64,000 nt of DNA, taken from IMG/VR virus record IMGVR_UViG_3300035698_035315, positions 1 through 64,000 of that record. One strand, written 5' to 3'. The first letter of the stretch is position 1, and each line of letters opens with the position of its first letter. The notes under the pieces were generated by a model, which saw nothing but the letters and a program-made list of their open reading frames with translations, did not search any database and had not been told where the DNA came from. Position numbers and translations under genes: made by a program. The DNA comes from a virus. Shown in pieces: positions 4,419-53,585 of this stretch.

Positions 4419-4424
4419 TTTAAT

Positions 4425-4518
4425 GGATAGGTGGCCGAGTTTGGTCTAAGGCTCTGGTTTCGAAAATCAGTAGGCGGTGTCAAACACTGTCTCGTGGGTT
4501 CAAATCCCACCCTATCCG
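4425..4518 (+). tRNA. tRNA-Ser (CGA), copy 1
   Basis: The acceptor stem GGATAGG pairs with CCTATCC at 4511-4517, and the discriminator is G. The anticodon stem CTGGT/ATCAG encloses TTCGAAA (anticodon CGA). It has the long variable arm expected for serine and a T-arm GTGGG-TTCAAAT-CCCAC. It is almost identical to the copy at 15929, differing in the D-stem (GCCGAG against GCTGAG). Confidence 0.92.
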
Positions 4519-4580
4519 TCAATGGTGGAGTTGTCTAAGAGGCTATTTGGTTTAGCAAGCAATTCAAAAAAGGGAACACA

Positions 4581-5021
4581 ATGAAGCCGAAGTTAGTCAA
4601 GGGCAACATTTTTGACACAGGATGTCAGTGGATTGGTCATGGCGTTAATTGTGTTGGCGTTATGGGTGCTGGTATTGCATTACAGGTTCGCCGCAGGTAT
4701 CCGTATTCTTTCACGGTTTACCAACAGGTCATTCATGACACTGGTTTAGTTCCGGGGCAGAACATTTATGTTGTAGAGAATCCTCATTCGATATGTCACA
4801 TGGCGACACAACCTAGGCCTGGGAGATTTGCTTGTCTTGAACTTGTTGAGATGTGTATTAGTGAGTTTATTCAAGAATACAACGAAGTGGGTGTTTCACT
4901 TGCTTTGCCGCGTATTGGTTGTGGCATAGGCGGCTTGAATTGGGAAGATGTATCACAGTTATTGGAAAAGCTGTTTACGCCCACTGCTATTGAGGTTGAG
5001 TTTTGGACGTATATGTTGTAA
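4581..5021 (+). CDS. Macro-domain protein (ADP-ribose-1''-phosphatase-like)
   Basis: The 146-residue protein is a stand-alone macro domain, a fold that binds ADP-ribose and related compounds. Its N-terminus (KGNIFDTGCQWIGHGVN) and loop GVMGAGIALQ (about 28-37) contain the ligand-binding Asn and Gly-rich loop. The second loop PRIGCGIGGLNW (about 108-119) binds the distal phosphate. The sequence most resembles the Poa1-type subgroup that removes phosphate from ADP-ribose-1''-phosphate, a by-product of tRNA repair by 2'-phosphotransferase. The start follows AAGGGA. Its place between tRNA-Ser and RtcB supports RNA end metabolism, but reversal of ADP-ribosylation is an equally fair alternative. 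Confidence 0.85.
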   Translation: MKPKLVKGNIFDTGCQWIGHGVNCVGVMGAGIALQVRRRYPYSFTVYQQVIHDTGLVPGQNIYVVENPHSICHMATQPRPGRFACLELVEMCISEFIQEYNEVGVSLALPRIGCGIGGLNWEDVSQLLEKLFTPTAIEVEFWTYML

Positions 5022-5072
5022 GAGATATGGCTCAAAGTAGATTTAGGCAAGAGATGAAAGGCAAGGTTTGCA

Positions 5073-6296
5073 ATGCAGGTTATCAATGACAATGGAAATT
5101 TGATTAAGGCTTGGATTGACGGTGTTTCCGTTGAAGATGGGGCTGTTGCGCAGTTGAAGAAGTGTGCTCAGATGCCTTTCATTTTCAAGCATGTAGCTGC
5201 AATGCCAGATGCTCATGTGGGAATGGGCGCTTGTATTGGTAGCGTAATTCCTACTATCGGTGCTGTTATGCCTTCGGCTGTTGGCGTTGACATTGGGTGT
5301 GGAATGGCTGCGGTAAGAACTACGCTTACCGAGTCTGACATTCCAGAGGCAATCAGACCCGATGTACGTTTTGCTATCGAAAATGCAATTCCAGCGGGCC
5401 GTTCGCATAACGGTGGCAAGGGCGACATTGGAGCCTGGGATAAGTTGCCAACTGTTGTAGAAGCCATTTGGCTTGACGAGCTTGCAGAGGACTACGACAA
5501 GATTACTGAGAAGCACAGGGGAGCTAAGGGATACAACGATGTAAACCAACTTGGTACGCTTGGGACGGGCAATCACTTCATTGAGATTTGTTTGGACAAG
5601 GACAACCGAGTATGGTTCATGTTGCATTCTGGTTCTCGTGGTTGCGGAAACAGAATTGGCAGCTATTTCATCAAGTTTGCAAAAGAGCTTTGCAATAAGT
5701 GGTTTATCAATTTGCCTGATTCTGATTTGGCTTATTTTCCACAGCGCACTGAAGAATTTTCAGATTACATGTTTGCGGTTGGCTGGGCGCAGAAGTTTGC
5801 CAGGTTGAATCGTGATTTAATGATGCAGTCTCTTGTTGACGCTATCAGGGGAGTGACATCTGTTCCTGAGTTTGAGTTTGAAGGCGATGTAGTCGATTGT
5901 CATCACAACTATGTTGCTTTTGAGAATCATTTTGGCAAGAATATATTAGTAACTCGCAAAGGTGCAATTCGTGCTCGCAAGGATGAGCTTGCTATTATTC
6001 CTGGTAGTATGGGCACGCGCTCGTACATTGTGCGAGGTCTTGGCAATAGGGACAGTTTTTGCAGTGCTTCGCATGGTGCTGGTCGTTGTATGTCACGAAC
6101 CCGGGCGCGCAAAACGATCACGGTAGATCAGCATGTTGCGGCTACAAAGGGTGTTGAGTGCGTTAAGGATAAGACTGTATTGGACGAATCACCTTTGGCG
6201 TATAAGGATATTGACAAGGTAATTGAAGCTGAACGGGATTTGGTAGAGCCTGTTCATACCTTACGTCAGATAATTTGCGTCAAAGGAATTGGATAA
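5073..6296 (+). CDS. rtcB: RNA-splicing ligase RtcB
   Basis: The 407-residue protein matches the length of bacterial RtcB (408 in E. coli), a GTP- and Mn-dependent ligase joining 2',3'-cyclic phosphate (or 3'-phosphate) to 5'-OH RNA ends. Metal and active-site motifs are present: PDAHVGMGACIG, VGVDIGCGM (D73, C76), GTLGTGNHFIE, HSGSRGCG, DCHHNYV, GSMGTRSYIV, and SASHGAGR with the guanylated histidine at H334. All look intact. The ribosome site is weak (AAGGCAAGG). Together with the Rnl1-type ligase at 1047 the phage covers both chemistries of RNA end joining. It is followed by three 11-bp repeats and a promoter motif. Confidence 0.96.
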   Translation: MQVINDNGNLIKAWIDGVSVEDGAVAQLKKCAQMPFIFKHVAAMPDAHVGMGACIGSVIPTIGAVMPSAVGVDIGCGMAAVRTTLTESDIPEAIRPDVRFAIENAIPAGRSHNGGKGDIGAWDKLPTVVEAIWLDELAEDYDKITEKHRGAKGYNDVNQLGTLGTGNHFIEICLDKDNRVWFMLHSGSRGCGNRIGSYFIKFAKELCNKWFINLPDSDLAYFPQRTEEFSDYMFAVGWAQKFARLNRDLMMQSLVDAIRGVTSVPEFEFEGDVVDCHHNYVAFENHFGKNILVTRKGAIRARKDELAIIPGSMGTRSYIVRGLGNRDSFCSASHGAGRCMSRTRARKTITVDQHVAATKGVECVKDKTVLDESPLAYKDIDKVIEAERDLVEPVHTLRQIICVKGIG

Positions 6297-6352: not shown

Positions 6353-6384
6353 AGGGAGCACATTTGATTGACAATTAAGTTTTT

Positions 6385-6412
6385 GCGGGTGTGGTGGAAT
6401 TGGCATACACGA
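6385..6412 (+). pseudogene. 5' part of a split tRNA-Leu (UAA) gene
   Basis: GCGGGTG (6385-6391) pairs perfectly over seven bases with CACCCGC at 7369-7375. It is followed by T8, G9 and a D-arm (GTG...CAC) up to base 26 and the first anticodon-stem base. The sequence then stops resembling a tRNA. The missing part, from the anticodon stem onward, is found at 7321-7376, about 908 bp away. Confidence 0.8.
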
Positions 6413-6456
6413 TATGCTATTTTGTTGTTTGACAATTGAGTTTGTTATGATATAAT

Positions 6457-6540
6457 GCGGGTGTAGCCGAACGGCATAGGCGACGGACTTAAAATCCGTT
6501 GGGTGTAATACCCATGTGGGTTCGAATCCCACCACCCGCA
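6457..6540 (+). tRNA. tRNA-Leu (TAA), intact copy
   Basis: The acceptor stem GCGGGTG pairs with CACCCGC at 6533-6539; the discriminator is A. The anticodon stem ACGGA/TCCGT encloses CTTAAAA (anticodon TAA). The variable arm TGGGTGTAATACCCA is long, as expected for leucine. The T-arm is GTGGG-TTCGAAT-CCCAC. It lies inside the split tRNA-Leu gene and can replace its function. Its upstream sequence (TTGACAATTGAGTTT) resembles that before the split copy (TTGACAATTAAGTTT). Confidence 0.93.
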
Positions 6541-6579
6541 TCAGTGAGGAGGAATCATGAAAATTGATAGGAAGGAGTT
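6541..6579 (+). repeat. 39-bp direct repeat, copy 1 (tRNA trailer, ribosome site and first codons)
   Basis: Identical to 7377-7415. It spans the end of the tRNA trailer, the GAGGAGG ribosome site, the ATG and the first seven codons (MKIDRKE) of the following gene. The endonuclease gene therefore begins with the same leader as the gene behind it. Confidence 0.95.
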
Positions 6580-7327
6580 TGAGAAAGCGTGGAATGGCAA
6601 TTTGGCTGTGAGAGAGATACGTAATGCGTTTGGCCTATCGGAAAGGCAAGTTAGGAAGTTCAGGGATGAATACAACTTAAAAAAGCGAAAGAGAGGCGGA
6701 GTACGGGTTAGCGAGTATCCAAAGACGAGTGAATCTGCCTATTTGCTTGGAGTGGCTTTAGGGGATGGAGATTTAGGAATCGTAGGAAGAACGATTAGGT
6801 TGAGGCTATTTTGTGACATAAAATTTCCATGCTTGATAGACAAGTGGCGTAATACATGTAATGCGGTTTTGGGATGTAATTCAAGTGTTATATCGTGGGG
6901 GAAGAATTGCAAAGCTGTGATGGCATATTCTAAGAAGTTACAAGAGTTTCCATGGAAACCTCGAAAAGGAAGAAAGTGGGAACAAAATGTTCGTATTCCA
7001 GATTGGGTCAAGGATGGTGGGTTCCTGATTGATTGTTTGGTTGGCCTCTTTGAAGCTGATGGTTGCATTTATACTCAACGGGTGAAAGTTGGAAACAGAG
7101 TCTATGAATACGAAAGGGTGAGTTTTAGCAATTCTGCAGAGTTGCTGATTCGGGATGTGATTGATTTTCTGTTGGATAATGGCATATCACATACAGTTGT
7201 TGAGCGTCCCGTAGGTGGTAAAACGATGATAAATGGAAAACCAGTAGTAAGTAGAACAATCAATTATTACATACAGATTATAGATAGGGATGGGTTTCTT
7301 GATTTAGTGCCGTTTAGTAAGACTTAA
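6557..7327 (+). CDS. LAGLIDADG homing endonuclease inserted in tRNA-Leu
   Basis: The 256-residue protein has a helix-turn-helix near residues 12-43 (AVREIRNAFGLSERQVRKF) followed by two LAGLIDADG helices: YLLGVALGDGDL (about 63-74) and CLVGLFEADGCI (about 162-173). This is the layout of single-chain DNA-cutting homing endonucleases. The start follows GAGGAGG. The first seven residues are identical to those of the gene at 7393. The stop codon TAA at 7325-7327 is exactly the TAA anticodon of the interrupted tRNA-Leu. The target site is presumably the intact tRNA-Leu anticodon arm of other phages; this is inference. Confidence 0.9.
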   Translation: MKIDRKEFEKAWNGNLAVREIRNAFGLSERQVRKFRDEYNLKKRKRGGVRVSEYPKTSESAYLLGVALGDGDLGIVGRTIRLRLFCDIKFPCLIDKWRNTCNAVLGCNSSVISWGKNCKAVMAYSKKLQEFPWKPRKGRKWEQNVRIPDWVKDGGFLIDCLVGLFEADGCIYTQRVKVGNRVYEYERVSFSNSAELLIRDVIDFLLDNGISHTVVERPVGGKTMINGKPVVSRTINYYIQIIDRDGFLDLVPFSKT

Positions 7328-7376
7328 AATCCGTTGGCCCTTTTTGGCTGTGTGGGTTCGAGTCCCACCACCCGCA
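7321..7376 (+). pseudogene. 3' part of the split tRNA-Leu (UAA) gene
   Basis: It starts with GACTTAAAATCCGT (last anticodon-stem bases, anticodon loop, 3' stem). It continues with a long variable arm (TGGCCCTTTTTGGCTG) and the T-arm GTGGG-TTCGAGT-CCCAC, and ends with CACCCGC plus discriminator A. It pairs with the 5' part at 6385. The variable arm differs from the intact copy, so this is a distinct tRNA-Leu gene, now probably inactive. Confidence 0.85.
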
Positions 7377-7415
7377 TCAGTGAGGAGGAATCATGAAAAT
7401 TGATAGGAAGGAGTT
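7377..7415 (+). repeat. 39-bp direct repeat, copy 2
   Basis: Identical to 6541-6579. It includes the ribosome site GAGGAGG and the codons for MKIDRKE. Confidence 0.95.
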
Positions 7416-7656
7416 GCTGACTGAAGCAAAGAGCAAACTCGGCAAGCAAGAGATGGCCAAGCTTGACCACTTGCTTGAAGACATAGAGAAGGTAGGCGCG
7501 AGCGTTGTCAACTTGGACGATGGCTTGCATTTGAAAGTCAATTGGTGTTTGTATTCTTTGCCTGAGTTTATGGAGGCGTATCGCAGGCATGACAAATGGC
7601 CTGATCTTTGGATGGAACGCATGCAAAAAATAGGACAATCAGTGCCTATTCATTGA
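7393..7656 (+). CDS. Hypothetical protein downstream of split tRNA-Leu
   Basis: An 87-residue protein. Its first seven residues (MKIDRKE) are duplicated at the start of the endonuclease gene. The N-terminal half is a charged helix (LLTEAKSKLGKQEMAKLDHLLEDIEKVG); the C-terminal half has strands and aromatics (LKVNWCLYSLPEFMEAYRRHDKWP). It is not recognised. It probably is the original gene behind the tRNA-Leu before the endonuclease arrived. Confidence 0.7.
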   Translation: MKIDRKELLTEAKSKLGKQEMAKLDHLLEDIEKVGASVVNLDDGLHLKVNWCLYSLPEFMEAYRRHDKWPDLWMERMQKIGQSVPIH

Positions 7657-15922: not shown

Positions 15923-15928
15923 AGAATT

Positions 15929-16025
15929 GGATAGGTGGCTGAGTTTGGTCTAAGGCTCTGGTTTCGAAAATCAGTAGGCGGTGTCAAACACTGTCTCGTG
16001 GGTTCAAATCCCACCCTATCCGCCA
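15929..16025 (+). tRNA. tRNA-Ser (CGA), copy 2, with encoded CCA
   Basis: Same structure as the gene at 4425, with one visible difference in the D-stem (GCTGAG). The discriminator G16022 is followed by CCA at 16023-16025, the only intact tRNA here with an encoded 3' CCA. The near identity of the two copies points to a recent duplication or exchange. Confidence 0.92.
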
Positions 16026-16180
16026 ATGGAACAATGACGAATCCTGAATTAAGATAATGCCCCGCTCTTGGTATTTACATCAGAACCGCTTAGAATTCTG
16101 CCAGACGCACATTCTCGCCTTACTAAATGTCTTGTCTTATTGACGAGTTTTGCAAACTTGTCTATTTGTACGTCGAATTT

Positions 16181-24496: not shown

Positions 24497-24565
24497 GTCC
24501 TTGTTATGGTGTGAAACCTGTTGTATAATATGTTGGTTACGACAGTTTTATGCCATAACAAGGAC
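24497..24565. repeat. 13-bp inverted repeat bracketing a TATAAT box
   Basis: GTCCTTGTTATGG (24497-24509) and CCATAACAAGGAC (24553-24565) are perfect inverted repeats separated by 43 bases that contain TGTATAAT (about 24521-24528). The right arm ends 11 bases before the ATG of the endonuclease gene and overlaps its ribosome site. It could be an operator or an attenuating stem. Confidence 0.75.
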
Positions 24566-24575
24566 GGAGAGAAAA

Positions 24576-25661
24576 ATGATGAATCCTTGGGTAATCGGCT
24601 GGGTTGCATCGGACGGTCATAATAATGGAGAAAGGTGGAGCGTATCGCAAAATTCAGATGACGCAGATGTTATGTGGATTATATACAACTTGTTTTCGGA
24701 TGCGAAGATTTCTATATCGTGTGGAAACAAGGCAGGTCGTTACGGCACTAAGGATCAAGTAATAGTTTGTAGAAAATCATCTCGTGACTGTGAAATATTG
24801 GAAGAGTGGGGAATACAGGTTGGTAATAAGACAATCAGTCTTAGATTTCCTAACGGTAAGGAAAGAGGCGATATATGGATGTATCTTCGGGGAATGTTTG
24901 AAGGTGACGGCACTGCTTATTTAGAAAATGGCAGAAATCCGAGATTAGAAATTGTGTCCAGTAGGCTTTGGTGTAATGACTGTAAGAAATGGCTTGACGA
25001 GCAAAATATTGATGCGTCGGTTTATGACGAGAAGAGGTCGCATGGCATTGCGTATTTGAGAATTGGTAGCTCATCAGATGTGACGAAGTTCATTAGAGGC
25101 ATTTATGATGTCGAATCTGGGCAGCGTATGGGTCGTAAGTTCGGCATTTGTTCTAAGGTAATGATTGCAATGAATATCTTCGATATAGAAGCCAGAAACA
25201 ATTTATCATGTGACAAAAGAAACAGACTCAGGTCTTTGATAGAAAATGATGTGAGGGATGGCTTGTCTGCTGTTGAGATTTCTAGGAGGTTGAATTGTCC
25301 TTTAAGTTTTGCAATGAGGGTTAGACGTGAGCTTGTTGGTTCTCGCAAACAAATAAAACAAAAAAAGGCATCTGAAATTCATAATCTTCTGAAGGATGGA
25401 AGAAGCCGGGCCGACATCGTGCGTCTTGGATATGGATATAAGTTAGTTCGGCAGGTCGCAGATGAAACTGTTGGAAGCGTAAAGGAGAAACAAGAGAAGA
25501 AAGTGGCAGCCATAAGGGAAATGATATTAAAAGGAGAGAGTGTTAGTGGAATAGTAGATGCGGCTCAGTGTAGTGCTGGGCGTGTCATAAGGGAAAGACG
25601 ATGGCTTGCTGAGCACGGTTACACAGTGAAGCTTAATAAGAGGAGAAGAAAGAATGAATGA
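24576..25661 (+). CDS. LAGLIDADG homing endonuclease with C-terminal HTH repeats
   Basis: A 361-residue protein; ATG 24576 (or 24579) after GGACGGAGAG. Two LAGLIDADG helices are seen: VIGWVASDGHNN (about 5-16) and YLRGMFEGDGTAYL (about 104-117). The last 150 residues hold three helix-turn-helix-like units (GLSAVEISRRLNCPLSFAMRV, SRADIVRLGYGYKLVRQV and SVSGIVDAAQCSAGRVIRE), an arrangement used for DNA binding by some homing endonucleases. It overlaps the next gene by eight bases. No split host gene is evident, so it is free-standing between genes. Confidence 0.85.
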   Translation: MMNPWVIGWVASDGHNNGERWSVSQNSDDADVMWIIYNLFSDAKISISCGNKAGRYGTKDQVIVCRKSSRDCEILEEWGIQVGNKTISLRFPNGKERGDIWMYLRGMFEGDGTAYLENGRNPRLEIVSSRLWCNDCKKWLDEQNIDASVYDEKRSHGIAYLRIGSSSDVTKFIRGIYDVESGQRMGRKFGICSKVMIAMNIFDIEARNNLSCDKRNRLRSLIENDVRDGLSAVEISRRLNCPLSFAMRVRRELVGSRKQIKQKKASEIHNLLKDGRSRADIVRLGYGYKLVRQVADETVGSVKEKQEKKVAAIREMILKGESVSGIVDAAQCSAGRVIRERRWLAEHGYTVKLNKRRRKNE

Positions 25662-38020: not shown

Positions 38021-39248
38021 AGCCCACTGCTTTAGCTGTGGGAGGAATGGCGACCTACTAAGATTGGCCAACAGGAAAAATAATTTATTTTCTATACCTG
38101 ACAACCTTCCCTTTTCGGGATACGATGCTGCTATGAAGCTAACAGCTAAAGTGAAGTTGCTGCCCAGCAAGGAACAAGCGGTAGGTCTCAAGGAAACGCT
38201 CAAGCAGGCTAACGTCGCTTGCAACAGTGTCAGCGACATAGCATGGGAACACAAAGAGTTCCACAAGTATGGTCTGCACAAGATCGCTTACCACGAGACA
38301 CGAGCTTCGTCCGGCTTAACAGCCCAAGTCGTTGTACGCTGTATATCTCGTGTGGCGGATGCTTACAAGTTGGATAAGAAGACCAAGCGCAAGTTCAAGC
38401 CTCTCAGCTCGATTGCCTACGATGATCGAATCCTGCGCTGGTACGTTGATAAGTCGGAAGTGTCCATCTGGACTGTGAATGGACGACAACGTATTACATT
38501 CGTCTGCGGGGAGCGTCAAAGGTGTCTGCTCAGTTCTCGACAGGGCGAGACAGACTTGATGCTTCACCGAGGCAAGTTCTATCTTGCAACGATTTGTAAC
38601 GTGGACGAGCTCGACCCGAAAGACGTGGACGATGCTCTTGGTATTGACCTTGGAATCGTCAACATTGCCGTCGATAGTGACGGGGAGGTCCATTCTGGCA
38701 GCCAGGTCAAAAGTGTTCGTCACAGACATCGTAGGTTGCGTACCAAGCTCAAACGTAAGGGTACGAAGTCTGCCAAGCGGTTGTTCAATAAGATGGCTGG
38801 CAAAGAGGCTCGCTTTGCCAAGGACGTGAACCACACGATTGCGAAGCACATTGTAGTGAAGGCGAAAGGCACTCATCGAGGTATCGTTCTCGAAGATTTG
38901 AACGGTATCCGAGATAGAGTAACGGCTCGTCGCTCTCAGCGCGCTACACTTAGTTCGTGGTCGTTTTTTCAACTGCGGCAGTACATCAGCTACAAGGCGA
39001 GACTCGTAGGCGTCCCTGTGTTCCTGGTTGACCCTCGGAACACATCTCGTACCTGTCCAGCCTGTGGCTGTATTGACAAAAGGAACAGACCTAACCAAGC
39101 TACTTTCTCCTGTGTCTCTTGCAGCTTTGCTGGGCCAGCAGACACTATCGCTGCGGATAACATCCGCAGGGTTGCAGTCAACCAACCATACGCGGATAGG
39201 CTTCGTGCCTGATCTGCAAGCCCATGGCTTTAGCCGTGGGTAGTTGAC
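38021..39248 (+). mobile_element. IS605/IS1341-type element with tnpB only
   Basis: The element begins with a hairpin (CCCACTGC-TTTA-GCTGTGGG, 38023-38042, followed by AGGAATGG) and ends with CCCATGGC-TTTA-GCCGTGGG plus TAGTTGAC (39221-39248), both typical of this family. It carries tnpB and no tnpA. The right-end sequence would form the 3' part of an omega RNA, with the guide read from the flank after 39248. GC content is higher than in the surroundings. Confidence 0.82.
38133..39212 (+). CDS. tnpB: TnpB RNA-guided endonuclease
   Basis: A 359-residue protein from ATG 38133 (MKLTAKVKLLPS, the usual TnpB start). RuvC residues are all present: D172 in GIDLGIVNIAV, E254 in IVLEDLNGI, and D337 in the ADTIAADNI segment. 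The zinc ribbon has C308-x-x-C311 and C327-x-x-C330. TnpB cuts DNA next to a short motif using an RNA from the element's right end, which helps the element persist. It is full length and apparently intact. The codon use is more GC-rich than in the neighbours, a sign of recent arrival. Confidence 0.95.
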   Translation: MKLTAKVKLLPSKEQAVGLKETLKQANVACNSVSDIAWEHKEFHKYGLHKIAYHETRASSGLTAQVVVRCISRVADAYKLDKKTKRKFKPLSSIAYDDRILRWYVDKSEVSIWTVNGRQRITFVCGERQRCLLSSRQGETDLMLHRGKFYLATICNVDELDPKDVDDALGIDLGIVNIAVDSDGEVHSGSQVKSVRHRHRRLRTKLKRKGTKSAKRLFNKMAGKEARFAKDVNHTIAKHIVVKAKGTHRGIVLEDLNGIRDRVTARRSQRATLSSWSFFQLRQYISYKARLVGVPVFLVDPRNTSRTCPACGCIDKRNRPNQATFSCVSCSFAGPADTIAADNIRRVAVNQPYADRLRA

Positions 39249-41737: not shown

Positions 41738-42295
41738 ATGTCTGAAACATTTGAAAAAGATGACACGTTTTCGGTTGTTGAGGGCGGTTCTACAGCTATG
41801 GTTGTAGATGGCCCTCACAGTGTTTCTGAGCATCGCAAACGTCTCATTTCAAAATATCATGATGGTCATGGCGGCTTGATGGAGCGTCTATCCGCTAGTG
41901 GTGGGGAGACGTTTGAAGGATTGCTGATAGCTCTTGTAAATGAGATAGTTGGCGAGACGGATCATTTGCTTGGTAATGAGCTTATTGCTACTGAGGAAGG
42001 TTCTTTACGTGATTCTTCGGTAATTTCTTTCAAGAGAGCAGAAGTTCTTGAGAAAGCTTTGAAGGCAATTCAAGCCAAGCAGCAATTTGAGCGTGAGAAT
42101 GGTCTTGATCTTGACTCGCCTGCAATGCGTGTAGTTTTCAGATATTTCATGTCTAAGGTGAAGTTGACTTTTGAGATGTTAGGTTATGAGGACGAGGCAT
42201 CGGATGTATTTTTTAGAACGCTTGGTGTGAATATGGAAATTTGGAAGAAAGAGTTGGAAGAAGAGCTTAGCATTGACAGTATGAGCGAGGAGTAA
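41738..42295 (+). CDS. Hypothetical helical protein, possible small terminase partner
   Basis: A 185-residue protein (ATG 41738 or 41735, site GGAGACAA). It is mostly helical (LMERLSASGGETFEGLLIALVNEIVGE, AEVLEKALKAIQAKQQFERENG). It overlaps the terminase large subunit start by one base (TAATG). By position and fold it may be the small terminase subunit, but no HTH is clear, so this is only a suggestion. Confidence 0.55.
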   Translation: MSETFEKDDTFSVVEGGSTAMVVDGPHSVSEHRKRLISKYHDGHGGLMERLSASGGETFEGLLIALVNEIVGETDHLLGNELIATEEGSLRDSSVISFKRAEVLEKALKAIQAKQQFERENGLDLDSPAMRVVFRYFMSKVKLTFEMLGYEDEASDVFFRTLGVNMEIWKKELEEELSIDSMSEE

Positions 42296-45204
42296 TGGCT
42301 AAAGACGTTTTCATGCGCGACTTGACAGAATCTTTCCTGTCAGGCAATACAACTGACATAGTAGATGCCATTACGTTTATGGAGTCTGCATGGGGCTTAC
42401 ATATCAGGTTCAAGCCAGCTCAGAAGTTTATTATCAAGATGTTTTATGGCTTGGAGCTGGAAGACAAAGAGAAGCTTGTTGAAGTTCCTGACATTGTAAA
42501 TGACCGCATTTTGTACAAGTTTACAGAGGTTGAATTCCTCAAGTATCTTTACGAAGAGGGACGGACAAATATAAAAGAGTCAACTGGGTTACAGTTTAGA
42601 GAGCTTGTTTTGGTACTTGGCAGACGTTCCGGCAAGTGCTTGTATAAGCAAGATTGGGCTAATACGACGATAGGAACTATAACTTATGGAGAATTACTTG
42701 AAAGAAATGGAAAAGGAGAGCGAATAGGGATTCTCACATATAACCCTGTCACGTTGAAAAGATGTATAACTTATGACTATTCTATTTGGTCGAATGGCAT
42801 AAAGAGATGTTATGAACTTAGAACACGGAGAGGTAGCGTTCAGATAGCTTCGGCCAATCATCCTTTTTTGATATGGCGTGACAATGAAGAAATCCCTGGA
42901 TTTGTCAATTTGGAAGATTTGAGAAGCGGCGATAGGATTGCTGTTTCTAGTGAAACAGCAACTTTTGGTTGTGAGGGAATTGGTATAAGCAGGGCAAAGT
43001 TGTTGGGTTATTTGCAGGGTGACGGCGGAACAACTCATTCAGTAGTTTTTACTACAGATAATGCGAAACATTTGTTAGATTTCAAAGAGTTGATTTCTCA
43101 AGAATTTCTTGATTATCAAGTCAAAGGCAAAGACTCAAAGGGTTATGATGTTATCAAAAGCTTACAGGGACATAAGCAGAATGGTAGTCAGAAAAACGAG
43201 GTTGTAGAGTGGCTGACAAGTATTGGATGTTTTGAAAAAAAGTCAATTCCAGAGTGTATTTTGAGAGGTTCGAAAGCAGAGGTAGCTGCATTTCTATCGA
43301 GACTTTTTGCTTGTGATGGTTGTACTTCTGTCAAAAATGGCAAGGATAAATCTCATAGTTTATCATCAGTTGAAATAGGATATTGTTCGTCATCATGGGA
43401 CTTGATTCAAGGTGTAAGACATTTATTGTTGAAGTTTGGCATTCATTGTTCTATCAGAGATAGGAAGATTATGTTAGATGGGAAGGAACATCAATCATAT
43501 TCTCTTTCTATTTGTATGAGTGAATCAGTATGTAGATTTGCGGAAGAGATTGGAATTTTTGGCAAAGAAGATGCTTTGGATAAAGTTTCTGTAGTAAATC
43601 AGCGTAATGATATGGCTTTTTCAGATGTTGCATGGGATGAAGTTGAGGCTGTTGAATTTGCTGGCGAGTTGGAAACTATAGATTTGACAGTAGAAGGGAC
43701 AAACATCATAGGTGGAGATATCATCTCACATAATAGTACGATGGCGGCCTGTATGTCGAATTATGAGATGTATAAGCTCATCAAGCGTGGTGATCCTTCG
43801 GCATATTATGGATTTCCTCCTGAGACGAACATATCAATTACGAATGTTGCTCCCACGGATGATCAAGCGGGTGTTGTGTTCAATATGATTCTTGGACAGG
43901 CGATGAATTGTCCATTTTTGCGAGACCGTTCTATCAATCAGACTCAGACGTATTTCAATTTGCGTACAGATGCAGACATGAAATCACTTGCTAAGCGGAA
44001 GCGTGCGAGTATTACATCTTTGGCGGGCGGTTGTGCATCGAACAGTTTACGTGGTCGGAACAATATAACAATTATATTGGATGAGATGGCATTTTTTATT
44101 GACAACAATGGCCGGTTTTCTGGTGGTGAGGTATATCGAGCGCTTACTCCTTCTACAGCAACATTTGAGGGTGATGGCAAGATTATCTGTATCAGTTCTC
44201 CGCGTGCCAAGTATGGGGCATTTTATGATCGGTTTTCACAGAGTGTAGATGAAAAAGATTCCACATTGATGTTCCAGATGTATTCTGCAATGTGTAATCC
44301 AAACGTTGATTCCATGCATCTCAAGAACGAGCGTCGGCGTGATAGAAGTGGGTTTATGTGCGAGTATGGCGGAGAATTTTCAGATACGATTACAGCTTGG
44401 ATAGATGATGAGCCATCTTTCAAAGCTTGTTTATCCGAGCGTGTTGGACGTTCAAGGGGTGATGTTGGTGTACCATATTTTATGGGCATAGACCTTGGCT
44501 TGAAGAATGATGGAACGGCGGTAGTGATTGTACATCGGGACGATGAGACGAAGAAGATATTTTTGGATTATGCTGAAGTATGGTACTCGGCGTCATCGGA
44601 TGTATGGGAATCAGAAAGCAGCATTTACTCTGATTGTAGGCATTTTGCTCATCGCGATGTAATTCAGGTTTCGGAAGTAGCTAAGGAAATAGGGCGTCTT
44701 TGTTTGTGGTTTCCTACAAAGAGTGGTTGGTTTGATCAGTACAATGGATATTCTTTACACGAGCAATTACACAACATGGGCTTGAATCAATTCAAGATGG
44801 AGCAGGTTACTGATGTTTTGAATAACAAGGTTTATCAATTGTTAAAGATGCTATTGATGGACAAACTGATTGACATGTTCAATCATCCTGTTTTGGTTTC
44901 TGAGATGTTGATGTTAGAAGCCGAGCGTAAGGCCAGGAATAAGGTTCAGGTTCGTGCTCCGAGTAGACGTGGCGCTCACGACGACATGTCTGATGCATTT
45001 GCAAGAGCAGTTTGGGAGTGTTACCAGCATTATCAAACCAAGTCTATTGACAACATAACATCGCTTGTTGGTGGGGGCCGTTCCGTAACATCGAGGGATG
45101 TTGCGAGTTCAAGTCTTGATGCTTTTCGGTTACAGCGCATGAAGGCCCATGGGGTTAACATTCGCAATATAAGTCAAAATCGGCGTGCAAAAAGAAGTTT
45201 TTGA
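42295..45204 (+). CDS. terL: Terminase large subunit, interrupted by an intein in Walker A
   Basis: A 969-residue precursor; after intein removal (366 residues) the mature protein is about 603 residues, normal for TerL. ATPase: Walker A LVLGRRSGK/S (split between K114 and S481 of the precursor) and Walker B TIILDEMAFF (about 590). Nuclease: YFMGIDLGLKNDGTAVV (about 730) and the C-terminal AHDDMSDAFARAVW (about 895). It packages DNA into proheads together with the portal. The gene is coupled to the preceding gene (TAATG). Confidence 0.95.
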   Translation: MAKDVFMRDLTESFLSGNTTDIVDAITFMESAWGLHIRFKPAQKFIIKMFYGLELEDKEKLVEVPDIVNDRILYKFTEVEFLKYLYEEGRTNIKESTGLQFRELVLVLGRRSGKCLYKQDWANTTIGTITYGELLERNGKGERIGILTYNPVTLKRCITYDYSIWSNGIKRCYELRTRRGSVQIASANHPFLIWRDNEEIPGFVNLEDLRSGDRIAVSSETATFGCEGIGISRAKLLGYLQGDGGTTHSVVFTTDNAKHLLDFKELISQEFLDYQVKGKDSKGYDVIKSLQGHKQNGSQKNEVVEWLTSIGCFEKKSIPECILRGSKAEVAAFLSRLFACDGCTSVKNGKDKSHSLSSVEIGYCSSSWDLIQGVRHLLLKFGIHCSIRDRKIMLDGKEHQSYSLSICMSESVCRFAEEIGIFGKEDALDKVSVVNQRNDMAFSDVAWDEVEAVEFAGELETIDLTVEGTNIIGGDIISHNSTMAACMSNYEMYKLIKRGDPSAYYGFPPETNISITNVAPTDDQAGVVFNMILGQAMNCPFLRDRSINQTQTYFNLRTDADMKSLAKRKRASITSLAGGCASNSLRGRNNITIILDEMAFFIDNNGRFSGGEVYRALTPSTATFEGDGKIICISSPRAKYGAFYDRFSQSVDEKDSTLMFQMYSAMCNPNVDSMHLKNERRRDRSGFMCEYGGEFSDTITAWIDDEPSFKACLSERVGRSRGDVGVPYFMGIDLGLKNDGTAVVIVHRDDETKKIFLDYAEVWYSASSDVWESESSIYSDCRHFAHRDVIQVSEVAKEIGRLCLWFPTKSGWFDQYNGYSLHEQLHNMGLNQFKMEQVTDVLNNKVYQLLKMLLMDKLIDMFNHPVLVSEMLMLEAERKARNKVQVRAPSRRGAHDDMSDAFARAVWECYQHYQTKSIDNITSLVGGGRSVTSRDVASSSLDAFRLQRMKAHGVNIRNISQNRRAKRSF
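42637..43734 (+). mobile_element. TerL intein with LAGLIDADG endonuclease
   Basis: 366 residues from C115 (CLYKQDW) to the terminal Ser-His-Asn (IISHN), followed by Ser481 as the first C-extein residue. The splicing blocks are complete (TRRGSVQIASANHPFL as block B). Two LAGLIDADG motifs (KLLGYLQGDGGT and FLSRLFACDGCT) mark an active-type homing endonuclease domain. The insertion falls directly inside the P-loop, between the conserved Lys and Ser. Confidence 0.93.
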
Positions 45205-49228: not shown

Positions 49229-49241
49229 AGAGGATGTGGAT

Positions 49242-52200
49242 ATGGCTAAGCAAAATGATAAAACAGTAGCTGCTTCTGCAGAGGGTGTTGTAAGAGTTCC
49301 GGTAACAGAAGATTACGTAAAGCAACGTATTGCTTCTGTTCAGGCAGTCAAAGCGGGTATGGTAACTCCGGGTGTTACTGTTGGGGCAGTTGATTCTAAC
49401 AGAGCCGTGCAGGCTCGTTTTCTTGAGAAGAATGCTACGGCTACTGCTGCTTATTTTGGCAGTAACGGCGGACGTGGGCGAACAGGCGGCATGATGATGG
49501 ATGCTCTTCCTTCGTTTACTTCTCCTTATGGTACAAATAGTTTACCAGCATATCGCACTTCGTATGCTTCGGGGGCTCAGTCGCAAGGGGGCGCTCGTGA
49601 TATTCCGCCGTATTTTGTGATGATGAATGAGCAAAATGGTGGAATCTTATATTGGCCTGTTACTTTACGTGAGAAATATGATTGGTATAGGTACTTTGCT
49701 CGATGTATCTACTTGTCTGACAACGACTTAGGGCAAATCTTGATGGCAGACGGAACTATCAAGAGTGTAGATGATGTTCAAATTGGCGATGAGGTTATAA
49801 CTGGCTTTGGAACTATTCGCAAGGTCAAAAATAAGTTTGAACGTCGATGTATTGAAGACAAGGCTGTTACCATCAAAGCATGGTGTTTGCAAAACCATCT
49901 CAAAACGACACATCACCATCCATATTGGATTATTCGTAGAGATGTTGTCAAGGATGGAAATGGATACAGGGATAATATTGATTTCAATCCTGAGTGGATA
50001 AATGCTGACAGGGTGAATGTTGGTGATTACGTTTTGATGGCTCCTGTTGCTTCTGACCCTGATAATACGATGACTTCCGGTGAGGCTCGTTTTCTCGGTT
50101 ATTATGCTGCCGAGGGGTCAATTGTGTGGGGCAAGCGTTGTGTTGGGACTGATGTGGATGGTAAGGGATACAAATGGCATCAAGAAAAGATTAAGGTTCC
50201 TGTTGGTGTGGCGTTTACCATCAATGCATCTGAGAAGGATACTTTGGGTAAAGGTATTCTTCGTACTGCTAAGGAAGTATTTGGCATTGACGGTTGTATT
50301 GTCCACGAACGCGGCAATAGTGTAGAAATTGTCGTCAATGGTCGAGAGGTAGGCGAATTCTGTTTTTATCACGTTGGAACGGGAAGCGCAACTAAGAAGT
50401 TGTCTTCTGAACTATTAATGTCTTCTAAGGAAGCACGTCGTGAGTTTTTAGTAGGATATATGGAAGGTGATGGTTGTCAATATGACGAAAAAACAACCAA
50501 TAAAGGCAAGATTGTAATTGGAACTTCTTCTCCAATGCTGGCATCGCAGGTTCAAGTGATGGCAATTGGCGCTGGTATAATGTGTCGTATAGCAAAATAC
50601 GAGCGTTCCAAGACGTGCAAGACAGGATACAAGAGTGATACTGACCAATGGCATATAACAATACCTTCATGGAGTGCTGACAGTTTTATAGCATCTTCTG
50701 ACAAGTGGGATGCTATCGACGGAATAAAGCAAAAGCGCGGCGCTTTCTTTATCAATGGATATGCTGCTTTTAAGGTCAAGGAAGTCACATATTCAGAAGA
50801 AGATGATGTTGTTTATAACATAGAAGTTGATGCAGATGGTGATGAGAAATCGTATATTTGCAATGGAATGGTGACTCACAATACTGATGCATATTGCGGG
50901 CGTGCTCTTGAGCTTTTGACTGATTTACCAATGAGCAAGCTTACTCTCAATATGCCTAAGATGGAGAAGCAATCCAAAAAGAAGAAGCAAGAGATACATG
51001 AGTTCTTTACCTATATGTGTGATGAGTTGAATTTATTTGAGAAGTTACATCAGATACTTTGGGAATTTAACGTCATTGGAAATTGTTTCAAGCCAGATGC
51101 TCTTGTTCACGTTCCCGGTGGCATGATGCCGATAGACAAAGTTCGAGTTAGAGACAAGGTTTTGAATGCCAATGGTGGTTATGATAAGGTCTCAAGAGTG
51201 ATGAGGCGTTGGGTAGATGAGTATTTGGTCGAGATAAAGATAGATAGGCTCACAGGTATTGATTGGCAAGCAACTAAGGAACATCCTGTTCTGGCTCTCA
51301 GAGATGGTGTTGAGCAGTTTGTTGATGCGAAAAACATTTGTAAGGGAGATTATGTCGGAATTGCATTCAACGACAATGTAGAGGACATGATAGAGTATGA
51401 GATTGTGAATGATGTCATCTCTCTTATGTCTGGCATGTTTGACCAGTTGTTGGTTGACCGGTCAGAAGACTCTCTTACGTTATCTGGCAAGATGACTCGT
51501 TTGTTGAGTATTTCAACAAGTGAAGACTTCCTGTATGTATTGGGATATTGGCTTGGGGATGGGTGGCTTTGGTCTACTAAGAATAATGGCCCGTGGGGAT
51601 TCTTGGCATGGGATGTAGTTTTTGATAAGAATTCCATAACTATTGACAAAATACGAGATGCAACGAGGTCGGTCTTTGGAAGTCAACTCAAGGAGAATGA
51701 AGGCGGCTATTGCAATGACAATTTGCTGCACCTGACGGTAAAAGACCCTATTTTTTGTGAGTGGTGGAATCATCATTTTGGTAAAGATTCACAAAGCAAA
51801 AAGATTCCAGCATGGGTAGAGTTGCTTCCGAAGGACAAATTGATATGGCTTCTTCGTGGGATGATAGACAGTGACGGTTGTATTAACAAAGAGAAGAAAA
51901 AGGGTATTGTATCGGCATCAATTACTACCACGAATGAAAAGTTGATGCATCAAGTCTTTCAAATAGGAATTAAATGTGGTATTCCTTTTTCATTCAAGAA
52001 GAATGACGGACGTATGGTCGAAATTGCCAATCATAGACAAAGTATGGGAAGAGACTCGTTTACTGTTTATATTTCTGATGCCGAGAAAACTTCTTCTTTG
52101 ATTCGTGGATGTGCAAAAGAGCTTCCTATTTCTATTGGAAAACCAACCGTTAATCAGAACTACAAGGAGATTGATGGTAGATTCTATTATCGGATTGGTG

Positions 52201-53585
52201 GTGTATCTGAAGTCCCATATCATGGTTGGGTCTACAATCTTGAAGTTGATGGAGACCATACTTATTGTACTGCTCAAGTCCGTCATCATAATTGCTACAT
52301 ATTTCATGAGTGGGATGAGAAGTCTAAGAAATGGGATAGGATAGTTATACTTCCTCCTGAAGAGGTTGCAGTATTTCAGTATCCATTTTCTGATATTGCT
52401 CGTGTAGAGTATAAGCCTGAGCGTTTAATGCAGTTACTTGAGTCTTCGGAGGATATGCAAACATCTGAAATGGATGATTTGTCTCGTGAGATTGTGTTGA
52501 ACACTCCAGATGAAATCAAGAAGATGGTTAGAAAGAACGGGGCTATCATAATGGACACTGATCCAACAAGTGGGTCTTTTGTTCATCACATGGCTCGGAT
52601 GCGGTCCCCATACATGGATTTGGGCGTATCTGTTCTTGAGCGAGTTTTGATACCGATGCTCATGAAAGAGCATTACAGGTATACGCAGTTATCGTTAGCA
52701 AGTCGTAATATGACACCGAAGAACAAGATACAGGCTCCGATGTTGACGGGGGATCAGCTTGAGGATTTACGGACTCAGATAGACCTTTCGTATTTAGACC
52801 CTGAGTATTCTATTGTTACGAATTACGAATGGGATTGGGAGCAAATTGGTGCTGACGCAAGATTGCTTGATTTGTCGCGTGAGTATGAGGTAATTGAGAG
52901 TCAGGTTTTTGCAGGCTTAGGAGTAACTCGCGAGCTTTTGACTGGCGAAGGTTCGTATAGTGGCAATCGTATAACAGTTGAAATTCTCAACACAATGTTT
53001 CTCATTGTTCGTGAGGTATTACAAGAGTATGTTGAGCACAAGTTGTTCAAGCCTGTTGCCGAGGCACATGGCTGGTATGAAGAGGGCAAGAATGGCGTAA
53101 AGAAGTATTGGTATCCTAGACTTGGGTTCAACCGGCTTACGATTCGTGACAATCAGGAAGTATTTGACAGTCTTTTTCAGTTGTATCAGAAGGGCAGTTT
53201 ACCTGTTGATATCATCTATGAATTGTTCAATCTTGATCCTGATTCCATTCACGAGAAGATTTACGAAGACTTGTTTACCGTAAAGGACCCCACTTTCAAT
53301 CGTGCAGTAGAGAACATCAATGATGATACTGGCCGCGCTCTTGTAGAGCGTAGTGATGTTGTTGACAGGGTTGGTAAATATCTTGGATTGAAAGTAAAGC
53401 CACCTGAAGGTGAAGAAGATGGCGGATTTGGTGATTTTGGTGGCGGATTTGGCGATGAAGAGGGCGGTGATGGTGGTTTAGAAGCTGAAGCTGAAGAATT
53501 GGCATCGACCATTTCAGAGGAATTACCAGCAGACTCTTCTGATGAGGAAATTGAAGAAGTAGTTGATTCGGTTTTAGAGGAGTAA
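49242..53585 (+). CDS. Portal protein precursor with two inteins
   Basis: A 1448-residue precursor from ATG 49242; removing 393 and 403 intein residues leaves about 652, a normal portal size for a large phage. Host parts read continuously: RYFAR/TDAYCGRALELLTDLP and EFNVIGN/CYIFHEWDEKSKKW, followed by the portal-like VFQYPFSDIARVEYKPERL, VLERVLIPMLMKEHYRYTQ and RNMTPKNKIQAP. The C-terminus is Gly/Glu-rich (GGFGDFGGGFGDEEGGDGG). The portal forms the 12-mer ring through which DNA enters. Identification rests on these portal-like segments and location after TerL. Confidence 0.88.
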   Translation: MAKQNDKTVAASAEGVVRVPVTEDYVKQRIASVQAVKAGMVTPGVTVGAVDSNRAVQARFLEKNATATAAYFGSNGGRGRTGGMMMDALPSFTSPYGTNSLPAYRTSYASGAQSQGGARDIPPYFVMMNEQNGGILYWPVTLREKYDWYRYFARCIYLSDNDLGQILMADGTIKSVDDVQIGDEVITGFGTIRKVKNKFERRCIEDKAVTIKAWCLQNHLKTTHHHPYWIIRRDVVKDGNGYRDNIDFNPEWINADRVNVGDYVLMAPVASDPDNTMTSGEARFLGYYAAEGSIVWGKRCVGTDVDGKGYKWHQEKIKVPVGVAFTINASEKDTLGKGILRTAKEVFGIDGCIVHERGNSVEIVVNGREVGEFCFYHVGTGSATKKLSSELLMSSKEARREFLVGYMEGDGCQYDEKTTNKGKIVIGTSSPMLASQVQVMAIGAGIMCRIAKYERSKTCKTGYKSDTDQWHITIPSWSADSFIASSDKWDAIDGIKQKRGAFFINGYAAFKVKEVTYSEEDDVVYNIEVDADGDEKSYICNGMVTHNTDAYCGRALELLTDLPMSKLTLNMPKMEKQSKKKKQEIHEFFTYMCDELNLFEKLHQILWEFNVIGNCFKPDALVHVPGGMMPIDKVRVRDKVLNANGGYDKVSRVMRRWVDEYLVEIKIDRLTGIDWQATKEHPVLALRDGVEQFVDAKNICKGDYVGIAFNDNVEDMIEYEIVNDVISLMSGMFDQLLVDRSEDSLTLSGKMTRLLSISTSEDFLYVLGYWLGDGWLWSTKNNGPWGFLAWDVVFDKNSITIDKIRDATRSVFGSQLKENEGGYCNDNLLHLTVKDPIFCEWWNHHFGKDSQSKKIPAWVELLPKDKLIWLLRGMIDSDGCINKEKKKGIVSASITTTNEKLMHQVFQIGIKCGIPFSFKKNDGRMVEIANHRQSMGRDSFTVYISDAEKTSSLIRGCAKELPISIGKPTVNQNYKEIDGRFYYRIGGVSEVPYHGWVYNLEVDGDHTYCTAQVRHHNCYIFHEWDEKSKKWDRIVILPPEEVAVFQYPFSDIARVEYKPERLMQLLESSEDMQTSEMDDLSREIVLNTPDEIKKMVRKNGAIIMDTDPTSGSFVHHMARMRSPYMDLGVSVLERVLIPMLMKEHYRYTQLSLASRNMTPKNKIQAPMLTGDQLEDLRTQIDLSYLDPEYSIVTNYEWDWEQIGADARLLDLSREYEVIESQVFAGLGVTRELLTGEGSYSGNRITVEILNTMFLIVREVLQEYVEHKLFKPVAEAHGWYEEGKNGVKKYWYPRLGFNRLTIRDNQEVFDSLFQLYQKGSLPVDIIYELFNLDPDSIHEKIYEDLFTVKDPTFNRAVENINDDTGRALVERSDVVDRVGKYLGLKVKPPEGEEDGGFGDFGGGFGDEEGGDGGLEAEAEELASTISEELPADSSDEEIEEVVDSVLEE
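49704..50882 (+). mobile_element. Portal intein 1 with LAGLIDADG endonuclease
   Basis: 393 residues from C155 (CIYLSDNDLG...LMADGTIKSVDDV) to MVTHN; the C-extein starts with Thr (TDAYCGR). It has block-B-like HLKTTHHHPYWI, and LAGLIDADG motifs RFLGYYAAEGSI and FLVGYMEGDGCQ. Splicing residues are complete. Confidence 0.93.
51084..52292 (+). mobile_element. Portal intein 2 with LAGLIDADG endonuclease
   Basis: 403 residues from C615 (CFKPDALVHVPGG) to VRHHN; the C-extein starts with Cys (CYIFHEW). It has block-B-like WQATKEHPVLAL, and LAGLIDADG motifs YVLGYWLGDGWL and LLRGMIDSDGCI. It lies 201 bp (67 host codons) after intein 1. Confidence 0.94.

Follow-up and report, generated by a model that had tools for sequence, protein, structure and literature searches.

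Selfish DNA appears to spread in phages by breaking a tRNA-Leu gene and replacing it

In the 64,000-nt stretch of DNA analysed here (the window), which is part of a 71.7-kb virus record (IMGVR_UViG_3300035698_035315), a tRNA-Leu(UAA) gene is split into two halves that enclose a LAGLIDADG endonuclease gene together with a complete tRNA-Leu(UAA) of different sequence (Table 1). This insert is probably an intron-less homing cassette, in which the endonuclease gene is accompanied by a replacement tRNA-Leu with the anticodon of the target, and by which the target tRNA-Leu itself was destroyed. An earlier note on this DNA had proposed that an element split the tRNA gene and supplies its replacement. 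That proposal is not proved on the window alone, but it is strongly supported by parallels involving an unrelated endonuclease family, HNH_3, by the empty sites known for some of these and by a cassette common to two contigs. It thus appears that selfish DNA can spread at the expense of a tRNA gene, which it breaks and then replaces.

Table 1. Features of the split tRNA-Leu locus and its neighbours in the window
Feature	Position	Strand	Evidence or remarks
RtcB RNA ligase gene	5073-6296	+	Pfam E=1.5e-122; neighbour of the split tRNA, outside the cassette
19-bp repeat TTGATTGACAATTAAGTTT	6364-6382 and 6425-6443	+	The first copy precedes the 5' half, the second the complete tRNA
tRNA-Leu 5' half	6385-6411	+	Acceptor GCGGGTG, D arm, base 26; 5'-half HMM E=7e-6
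Inserted cassette	6412-7320	+	About 909 bp; takes the place of 2-3 anticodon-stem nt (near positions 27-29); junction analysis
Sigma-70-like promoter	6429-6456	+	Perfect TTGACA-16-TATAAT with TG; abuts the complete tRNA directly
Complete (replacement) tRNA-Leu(UAA)	6457-6540	+	ARAGORN; Rfam 64.7 bits
Direct repeat of about 94 bp, copy 1	6486-6579	+	3' half of the complete tRNA, leader and codons 1-7
LAGLIDADG homing endonuclease gene (256 aa)	6557-7327	+	Pfam LAGLIDADG_3 E=3e-6; two motifs; N-terminal helix-turn-helix
tRNA-Leu 3' half	7321-7376	+	Anticodon-stem base 30 to A73: variable arm, T arm, acceptor CACCCGC; 3'-half HMM E=3e-9
Direct repeat of about 94 bp, copy 2	7321-7415	+	Orphan 3' half, leader and codons 1-7 of the next gene
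Stop codon/anticodon TAA	7325-7327	+	Ends the endonuclease gene and forms the anticodon of the 3' half; L033 has a counterpart (1960-1962)
Next gene (87 aa)	7393-7656	+	First seven codons duplicated at the start of the endonuclease gene

The two halves were confirmed by a direct check of the sequence, in which the acceptor strand GCGGGTG begins at 6385 and its partner strand CACCCGC at 7369, on either side of the insert. The 5' half reads GCGGGTG TG GTGG AATTGGCATA CAC G, with T8 and G9, the D-stem pairs G10-C25, U11-A24 and G12-C23, and base 26; its D arm (TGGTGGAATTGGCATACAC) is also present in intact phage tRNA-Leu genes. The 3' half opens with GACTTAAAATCC at 7321, carries the variable arm TTGGCCCTTTTTGGCTGT and closes at A73 (7376). 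Under a strict pattern, the T arm at 7357 is the only one outside an intact tRNA on either strand of the whole 64 kb, which, together with the scores of the half-models (Table 1), indicates that the split gene is more than a chance resemblance. The breakpoints are complementary within the anticodon stem, falling after base 26 in the 5' half and before base 30 in the 3' half, with an uncertainty of 1-6 nt in the cassette boundary. About 80 bp of the insert remain outside the ORF and the complete tRNA.

The LAGLIDADG gene that had been reported between the halves was verified by its Pfam match (LAGLIDADG_3, 27.8 bits against a curated cut-off of 22.5), and its translation contains the motifs LLGVALGDGDL and LVGLFEADGCIY; a match to HTH_28 at the N-terminus is below the cut-off (E=0.004). 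The protein is presumably active as a nuclease. It has no match amongst PDB sequences, and an AlphaFold2 model made with three sequences only (mean pLDDT 42) was too poor for a fold search. No close kin of the endonuclease was found amongst viral contigs or by tblastn in phage records, and no second LAGLIDADG cassette of the window type was found. The only non-viral relative, a weak one (28%), is in an Elusimicrobia MAG (L088, 2665-3723), where the gene stops 3 bp ahead of a complete tRNA-Ser(CGA) and no orphan tRNA half was seen when the locus was inspected by eye. Six weak viral relatives (L089-L094) have no tRNA nearby and were rejected as further cassettes; at least one of them (L094) is a terminase intein.

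Other features of the window include a second free-standing LAGLIDADG_3 gene (24501-25661, Pfam E=1.4e-6) with C-terminal helix-turn-helix-like repeats and, judging from translations only, apparent LAGLIDADG inteins in a terminase-like ORF (one, 42295-45204) and a portal-like ORF (two, 49236-53585). A TnpB-like ORF (38064-39212) has zinc-finger CPxC motifs in its translation. Two tRNA-Ser(CGA) genes (4424-4525 and 15928-16029) are 98% identical over 102 bp. Genes for a macro-domain protein and RtcB lie side by side (4581-6296) just upstream of the split tRNA, which suggests tRNA repair against anticodon nucleases.

The complete tRNA-Leu(UAA) between the halves, also described in the earlier note, was recovered by both ARAGORN and Rfam. 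It shares the anticodon of the broken gene and is nearly identical to it in the T arm, the acceptor and 17 bases around the anticodon, but the D and variable arms are divergent. The D arms differ with compensating changes (GTGG..CAC in the 5' half and GCCG..GGC in the complete tRNA), and the variable arms, GGCCCTTTTTGGCT in the split pieces and GGGTGTAATACCC in the complete tRNA, are wholly unlike, each being able to form a stem. The acceptor stem is identical in both halves and the complete tRNA, so pairing between the halves is weaker evidence in the window than at the HNH loci. About 17 bp separate the 5' half from the predicted promoter at 6429. Transcription from this promoter would start within the abutting tRNA itself, so that it may not drive that tRNA.

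The two copies of the 94-bp repeat match except in the variable arm and at one further base. They bracket the body of the endonuclease gene exactly, copy 1 stopping where the body starts and copy 2 beginning where it ends; a duplicate of the start of the next gene thus supplies the endonuclease gene with its first codons and ribosome-binding site. The repeat is not seen in the HNH cassettes described below and requires an extra step. In the simplest account, the carried tRNA-Leu would have been acquired from a related phage at its orthologous locus, or gene conversion may have homogenized its leader and 3' part.

Searches of viral contigs with the downstream gene, the endonuclease, a 44-bp junction pattern and a variable-arm pattern found no relatives of the window locus, and the RtcB relatives (L003-L005), which are distant ones, lack a neighbouring tRNA. 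A scan with the D arm of the 5' half returned 16 viral contigs, in 15 of which the sequence belongs to an unsplit tRNA-Leu (an intact gene in 14, and in L021 one truncated by the contig end). The remaining contig, L020, is split, and contains in order a 5' piece, an HNH gene, a complete tRNA-Leu(UAA), a small ORF and a 3' piece. Its 3' strand CACCGGC pairs 7/7 with the 5' strand GCCGGTG, and the complete tRNA has a different acceptor. The HNH gene belongs to the HNH_3 family, which is unrelated to LAGLIDADG, and its relatives in named phages also adjoin tRNA-Leu. Blastn matches to the halves in phiAS5, Serratia WSPA, MT836718 and MT840028, which lack tRNA annotation, were rejected as intact unannotated tRNA-Leu genes; BcepSauron, found by the same route, has a genuine split tRNA-Leu.

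With an alignment of four HNH proteins as the query, 58 viral loci were collected, 46 of which have an intact tRNA-Leu no more than 200 bp from the HNH gene. Orphan 5' and 3' halves enclose the HNH gene and a complete tRNA-Leu in L030 (the same as L020), L033, L054, L055 and L085 (BcepSauron). L033 copies the order in the window: 5' half, complete tRNA-Leu(UAA), gene and 3' half. There are 5' orphan halves with no recognizable 3' half in L045, L060 and L066 and, judged by eye, in L036-L040, L047/L071, L049 and L053. Strong 5' orphans number 13 and 3' orphans 12 in the HNH loci (counts that take in intron-split genes and one contig-end case, L037), against one of each in 19 control tRNA-Leu loci without an HNH gene (131 kb), where the 5' orphan is a tRNA cut by the contig end and the 3' match is on the opposite strand. 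Orphan acceptor strands pair 7/7 inside each locus; all 42 of 42 pairs were reached by one of 720 permutations, the true pairing, in a test that includes the window, whose acceptor is common. In several HNH cassettes a promoter of the TTGACA/TATAAT type, as read from the sequence, stops 8-9 bp before the carried tRNA.

Two further observations concern these loci. In L072 and L081 the HNH relatives have a tRNA-Ile(UAU) call just downstream instead of tRNA-Leu, a possible shift of target. In L045, 80 nt (2026-2105) match the tmRNA model over its full length (65 bits), and may represent a shortened tmRNA or its tRNA-like part.

The coincidence between the endonuclease stop codon and the anticodon of the split tRNA, to which the earlier note drew attention, is real. 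It recurs in L033, whose HNH gene likewise stops at the anticodon TAA of the 3' half; in L031 and L052 (PVP-SE1) it is found on the complete tRNA. The idea that the element makes use of the anticodon fared less well: the coincidence in the window is probably an incidental by-product of an insertion that fell just 5' of a UAA anticodon, rather than a regulatory device.

Comparison of related phages provides empty and filled sites for the HNH elements. At a site where BcepSaruman has an intact tRNA-Leu(UAG), BcepSauron has a 5' half that extends to base 25, followed by an HNH gene, a complete but different tRNA-Leu(UAG) and a 3' half. The two are about 93-97% identical on both flanks, with about 12 anticodon-arm bases replaced in BcepSauron, and the BcepSauron pieces demonstrably derive from one tRNA. 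Similarly, the tRNA-Leu(UAA) that is intact in Salmonella phage KE23 and Cronobacter phage GAP31 survives in SalP219 and SSE121 only as its 5' half, together with an HNH gene and a different tRNA-Leu(UAA); the old 3' half has disappeared. Escherichia phage 4MG, which can be grown on laboratory K-12, likewise lacks the insert. In both comparisons (BcepSaruman with BcepSauron, and KE23 and GAP31 with SalP219), the tRNA-Leu lost and the one supplied share an anticodon. In Salmonella phage NINP13076 (L098, approx. 1000-1164) the HNH gene is mostly deleted and the replacement tRNA-Leu is kept.

L054 and L055 share a 603-bp unit (98.3% identity) that opens with the first base of the 5' half and closes with the CCA of the 3' half. 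They have no similarity outside it, and their acceptors differ by one compensatory pair, T-A against A-T. Identity limited to this unit is the trace expected if it was transferred horizontally, the tRNA halves serving as homology arms, and the comparison shows one HNH cassette to have moved, as judged at the sequence level, between contigs with unrelated flanks. To judge from these genome comparisons, then, HNH elements have inserted into tRNA-Leu genes and replaced them with genes of the same anticodon, and one such cassette has spread.

For the window's own locus, neither an uninterrupted nor an interrupted allele was found, whereas the HNH parallels have their intact sites in BcepSaruman and in KE23 and GAP31. 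We therefore infer the insertion of the endonuclease gene into the window tRNA-Leu from anatomy and by analogy. An origin of the pieces from two unrelated tRNAs, a possibility raised in the earlier note, is excluded for BcepSauron by BcepSaruman; for the window pieces it is unlikely.

The most likely mechanism is that, in a co-infecting phage without the cassette, the endonuclease cuts tRNA-Leu in the region of the anticodon arm, and that recombination repair then copies the cassette in, the tRNA halves and flanks acting as homology arms. The target tRNA-Leu would be broken, and the recipient genome would gain the cassette's tRNA-Leu, which could take over. Because this has the anticodon of the target, insertion would cost little. 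The carried tRNA-Leu and the target are unlike each other on the D-arm side of the cut, and the former may be cut poorly. The scheme supposes the site of the cut, the expression of the carried tRNA-Leu and its resistance to cleavage.

Alternatively, the LAGLIDADG gene could have landed between tandem copies of tRNA-Leu, the pieces being remnants of two tRNAs that arose by separate deletions or by tandem duplication of a 3' half and leader. The 94-bp repeat around the endonuclease body resembles a segmental duplication, and the 19-bp upstream repeat is compatible with duplicated loci. In addition, ATATG after the 5' half is unpaired with TCCGT of the 3' half, and the three acceptor stems are identical. 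A recent duplication, however, would not yield a wholly different variable arm with a new pairing stem in a sequence otherwise about 99% identical. The complementary placing of the breakpoints in the anticodon stem also argues against decay, as does the recurrence of the nested order with an unrelated nuclease, including the BcepSauron case in which the pieces came from one tRNA. Such an origin is unlikely, and a homing cassette remains the preferred explanation.

It is far less probable that the insert is an intron or part of a split-tRNA system, in which the halves would be joined after transcription by self-splicing or by cutting and ligation by the neighbouring RtcB. The RtcB gene is 88 bp upstream of the 5' half, and HNH genes related to those above accompany group I introns in tRNA-Leu(UAA), detected by Rfam in L061, L062 and L065 and read from the sequence, without an Rfam match, in L069 and L078. 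The same Rfam search (RF00028) found no group I intron in the window, either at the gathering threshold or at E<5, and an intron would have only the 80 bp or so outside the ORF and complete tRNA. When the halves were joined at 196 junctions, none yielded a normal anticodon arm; only two joins gave five pairs, with the wrong length or with bases borrowed from the D stem, and no normally spaced join gave a full anticodon stem. The halves cannot rebuild the arm because 2-3 bases of the target are missing. RtcB is present in at least 513 phage records, so its position beside a split tRNA is not specific, and in the window we take it to be more likely a tRNA-repair gene. An archaeal-type tRNA splicing endonuclease, acting on a bulge-helix-bulge, is not known in bacteria or phages. 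An insertion rather than an intron, as the earlier note held, is thus borne out by the missing group I match and the failure of any junction to restore the anticodon arm.

Amongst the HNH relatives, splicing and replacement occur side by side. In L062, L069 and L078 the HNH gene is within an intron-split tRNA-Leu. In L061 (1480-2243) and L065 (1466-2276), an orphan 5' half and HNH gene are followed by a tRNA-Leu with an ORF-less group I intron, the HNH gene and the intron thus being separate at one target. Replacement-type and intron-associated members are intermixed in the HNH tree, so that both strategies are employed within one family; this tree has no root and some weak parts, and we do not read from it which strategy came first.

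Least probable of all is a site-specific integrase element that restores its tRNA target and carries the endonuclease gene as a passenger: the tRNA target and the direct repeat of the tRNA 3' part are what integrases leave, and there is a 17-bp tRNA repeat, but the endonuclease gene is the only gene in the insert, no integrase gene is present at the locus or in the analogous HNH inserts, and the complete tRNA is a copy divergent in its D and variable arms, not one rebuilt by crossover in an identical core. The likeness to integrases drawn in the earlier note is a loose comparison, since a whole tRNA gene is carried rather than the missing half, and without an integrase.

The chances seem evenly balanced that the window and the HNH loci represent a widespread natural home-and-rescue class in phages, in which at least two unrelated endonuclease families (LAGLIDADG and HNH_3) home into the anticodon arm of tRNA-Leu genes, destroy these, bring a tRNA-Leu of the same anticodon that their own enzyme spares and in this way also drive the turnover of phage tRNA genes. 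Cassettes of this kind would account for orphan tRNA halves and for otherwise unexplained tRNA-Leu turnover in phage tRNA clusters, and offer one plausible explanation for the movement of certain tRNA genes together with nucleases. The usual view is that homing endonuclease genes require a harmless seat, such as an intron, an intein or an intergenic gap. Phages appear to use another solution, which is to break an RNA gene and pay with a spare copy. In engineered home-and-rescue drives, the nuclease inserts a copy of itself into a gene that is needed and supplies a resistant version of that gene. Such drives use engineered Cas9, whereas the window cassette is natural and the resistance of its carried copy only putative; it may provide a natural, testable counterpart.

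In the open-licence papers searched, no endonuclease gene was described that splits a tRNA and brings a replacement tRNA, in agreement with the earlier note, which knew of no such case for a homing endonuclease. What seems new is this combination; intron-less homing and the replacement of a gene end are already known. The closest known logic is that of fungal mitochondrial mORFs, intron-less LAGLIDADG or GIY-YIG genes in atp6, atp9, cox2 and nad3 of Allomyces macrogynus and Glomus, which split the host gene and carry a divergent replacement of the severed part, the native end persisting as a remnant (PMC3630166). Like the window cassette, they combine a gene-splitting, intron-less endonuclease with a divergent replacement. 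In mORFs, however, this is a protein C-terminus fused in frame, in mitochondria, whereas in the window it is a whole RNA gene, in a phage, with remnants on both sides.

Free-standing, intron-less homing endonucleases are also known in phage T4 (Seg and Mob), where SegB favours the inheritance or amplification of tRNA genes (PMC2988022; PMC13096335). SegB resembles the window gene in being a free-standing endonuclease gene associated with phage tRNA genes, but it is of the GIY-YIG type and occupies an intergenic position amongst tRNA genes, and descriptions of it mention neither a split tRNA nor a replacement carried along. In Aeromonas phage Aeh1, mobE is inserted in nrdA and the split protein reassembles (PMC2988022). 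Here too, a homing endonuclease splits a critical coding region without an intron or intein; NrdA is repaired by reassembly, whereas the damage in the window is offset by a second copy of the gene. Group I introns, some with homing endonucleases, occupy the anticodon loop of tRNA-Leu(UAA) and other tRNAs (PMC3984707). They target the same gene and region as the window cassette, but restore the tRNA by splicing, whereas in the window there is no intron and the tRNA is replaced. As it also accompanies tRNA-Leu introns, the HNH family permits a direct comparison of these two rescue strategies, splicing and replacement.
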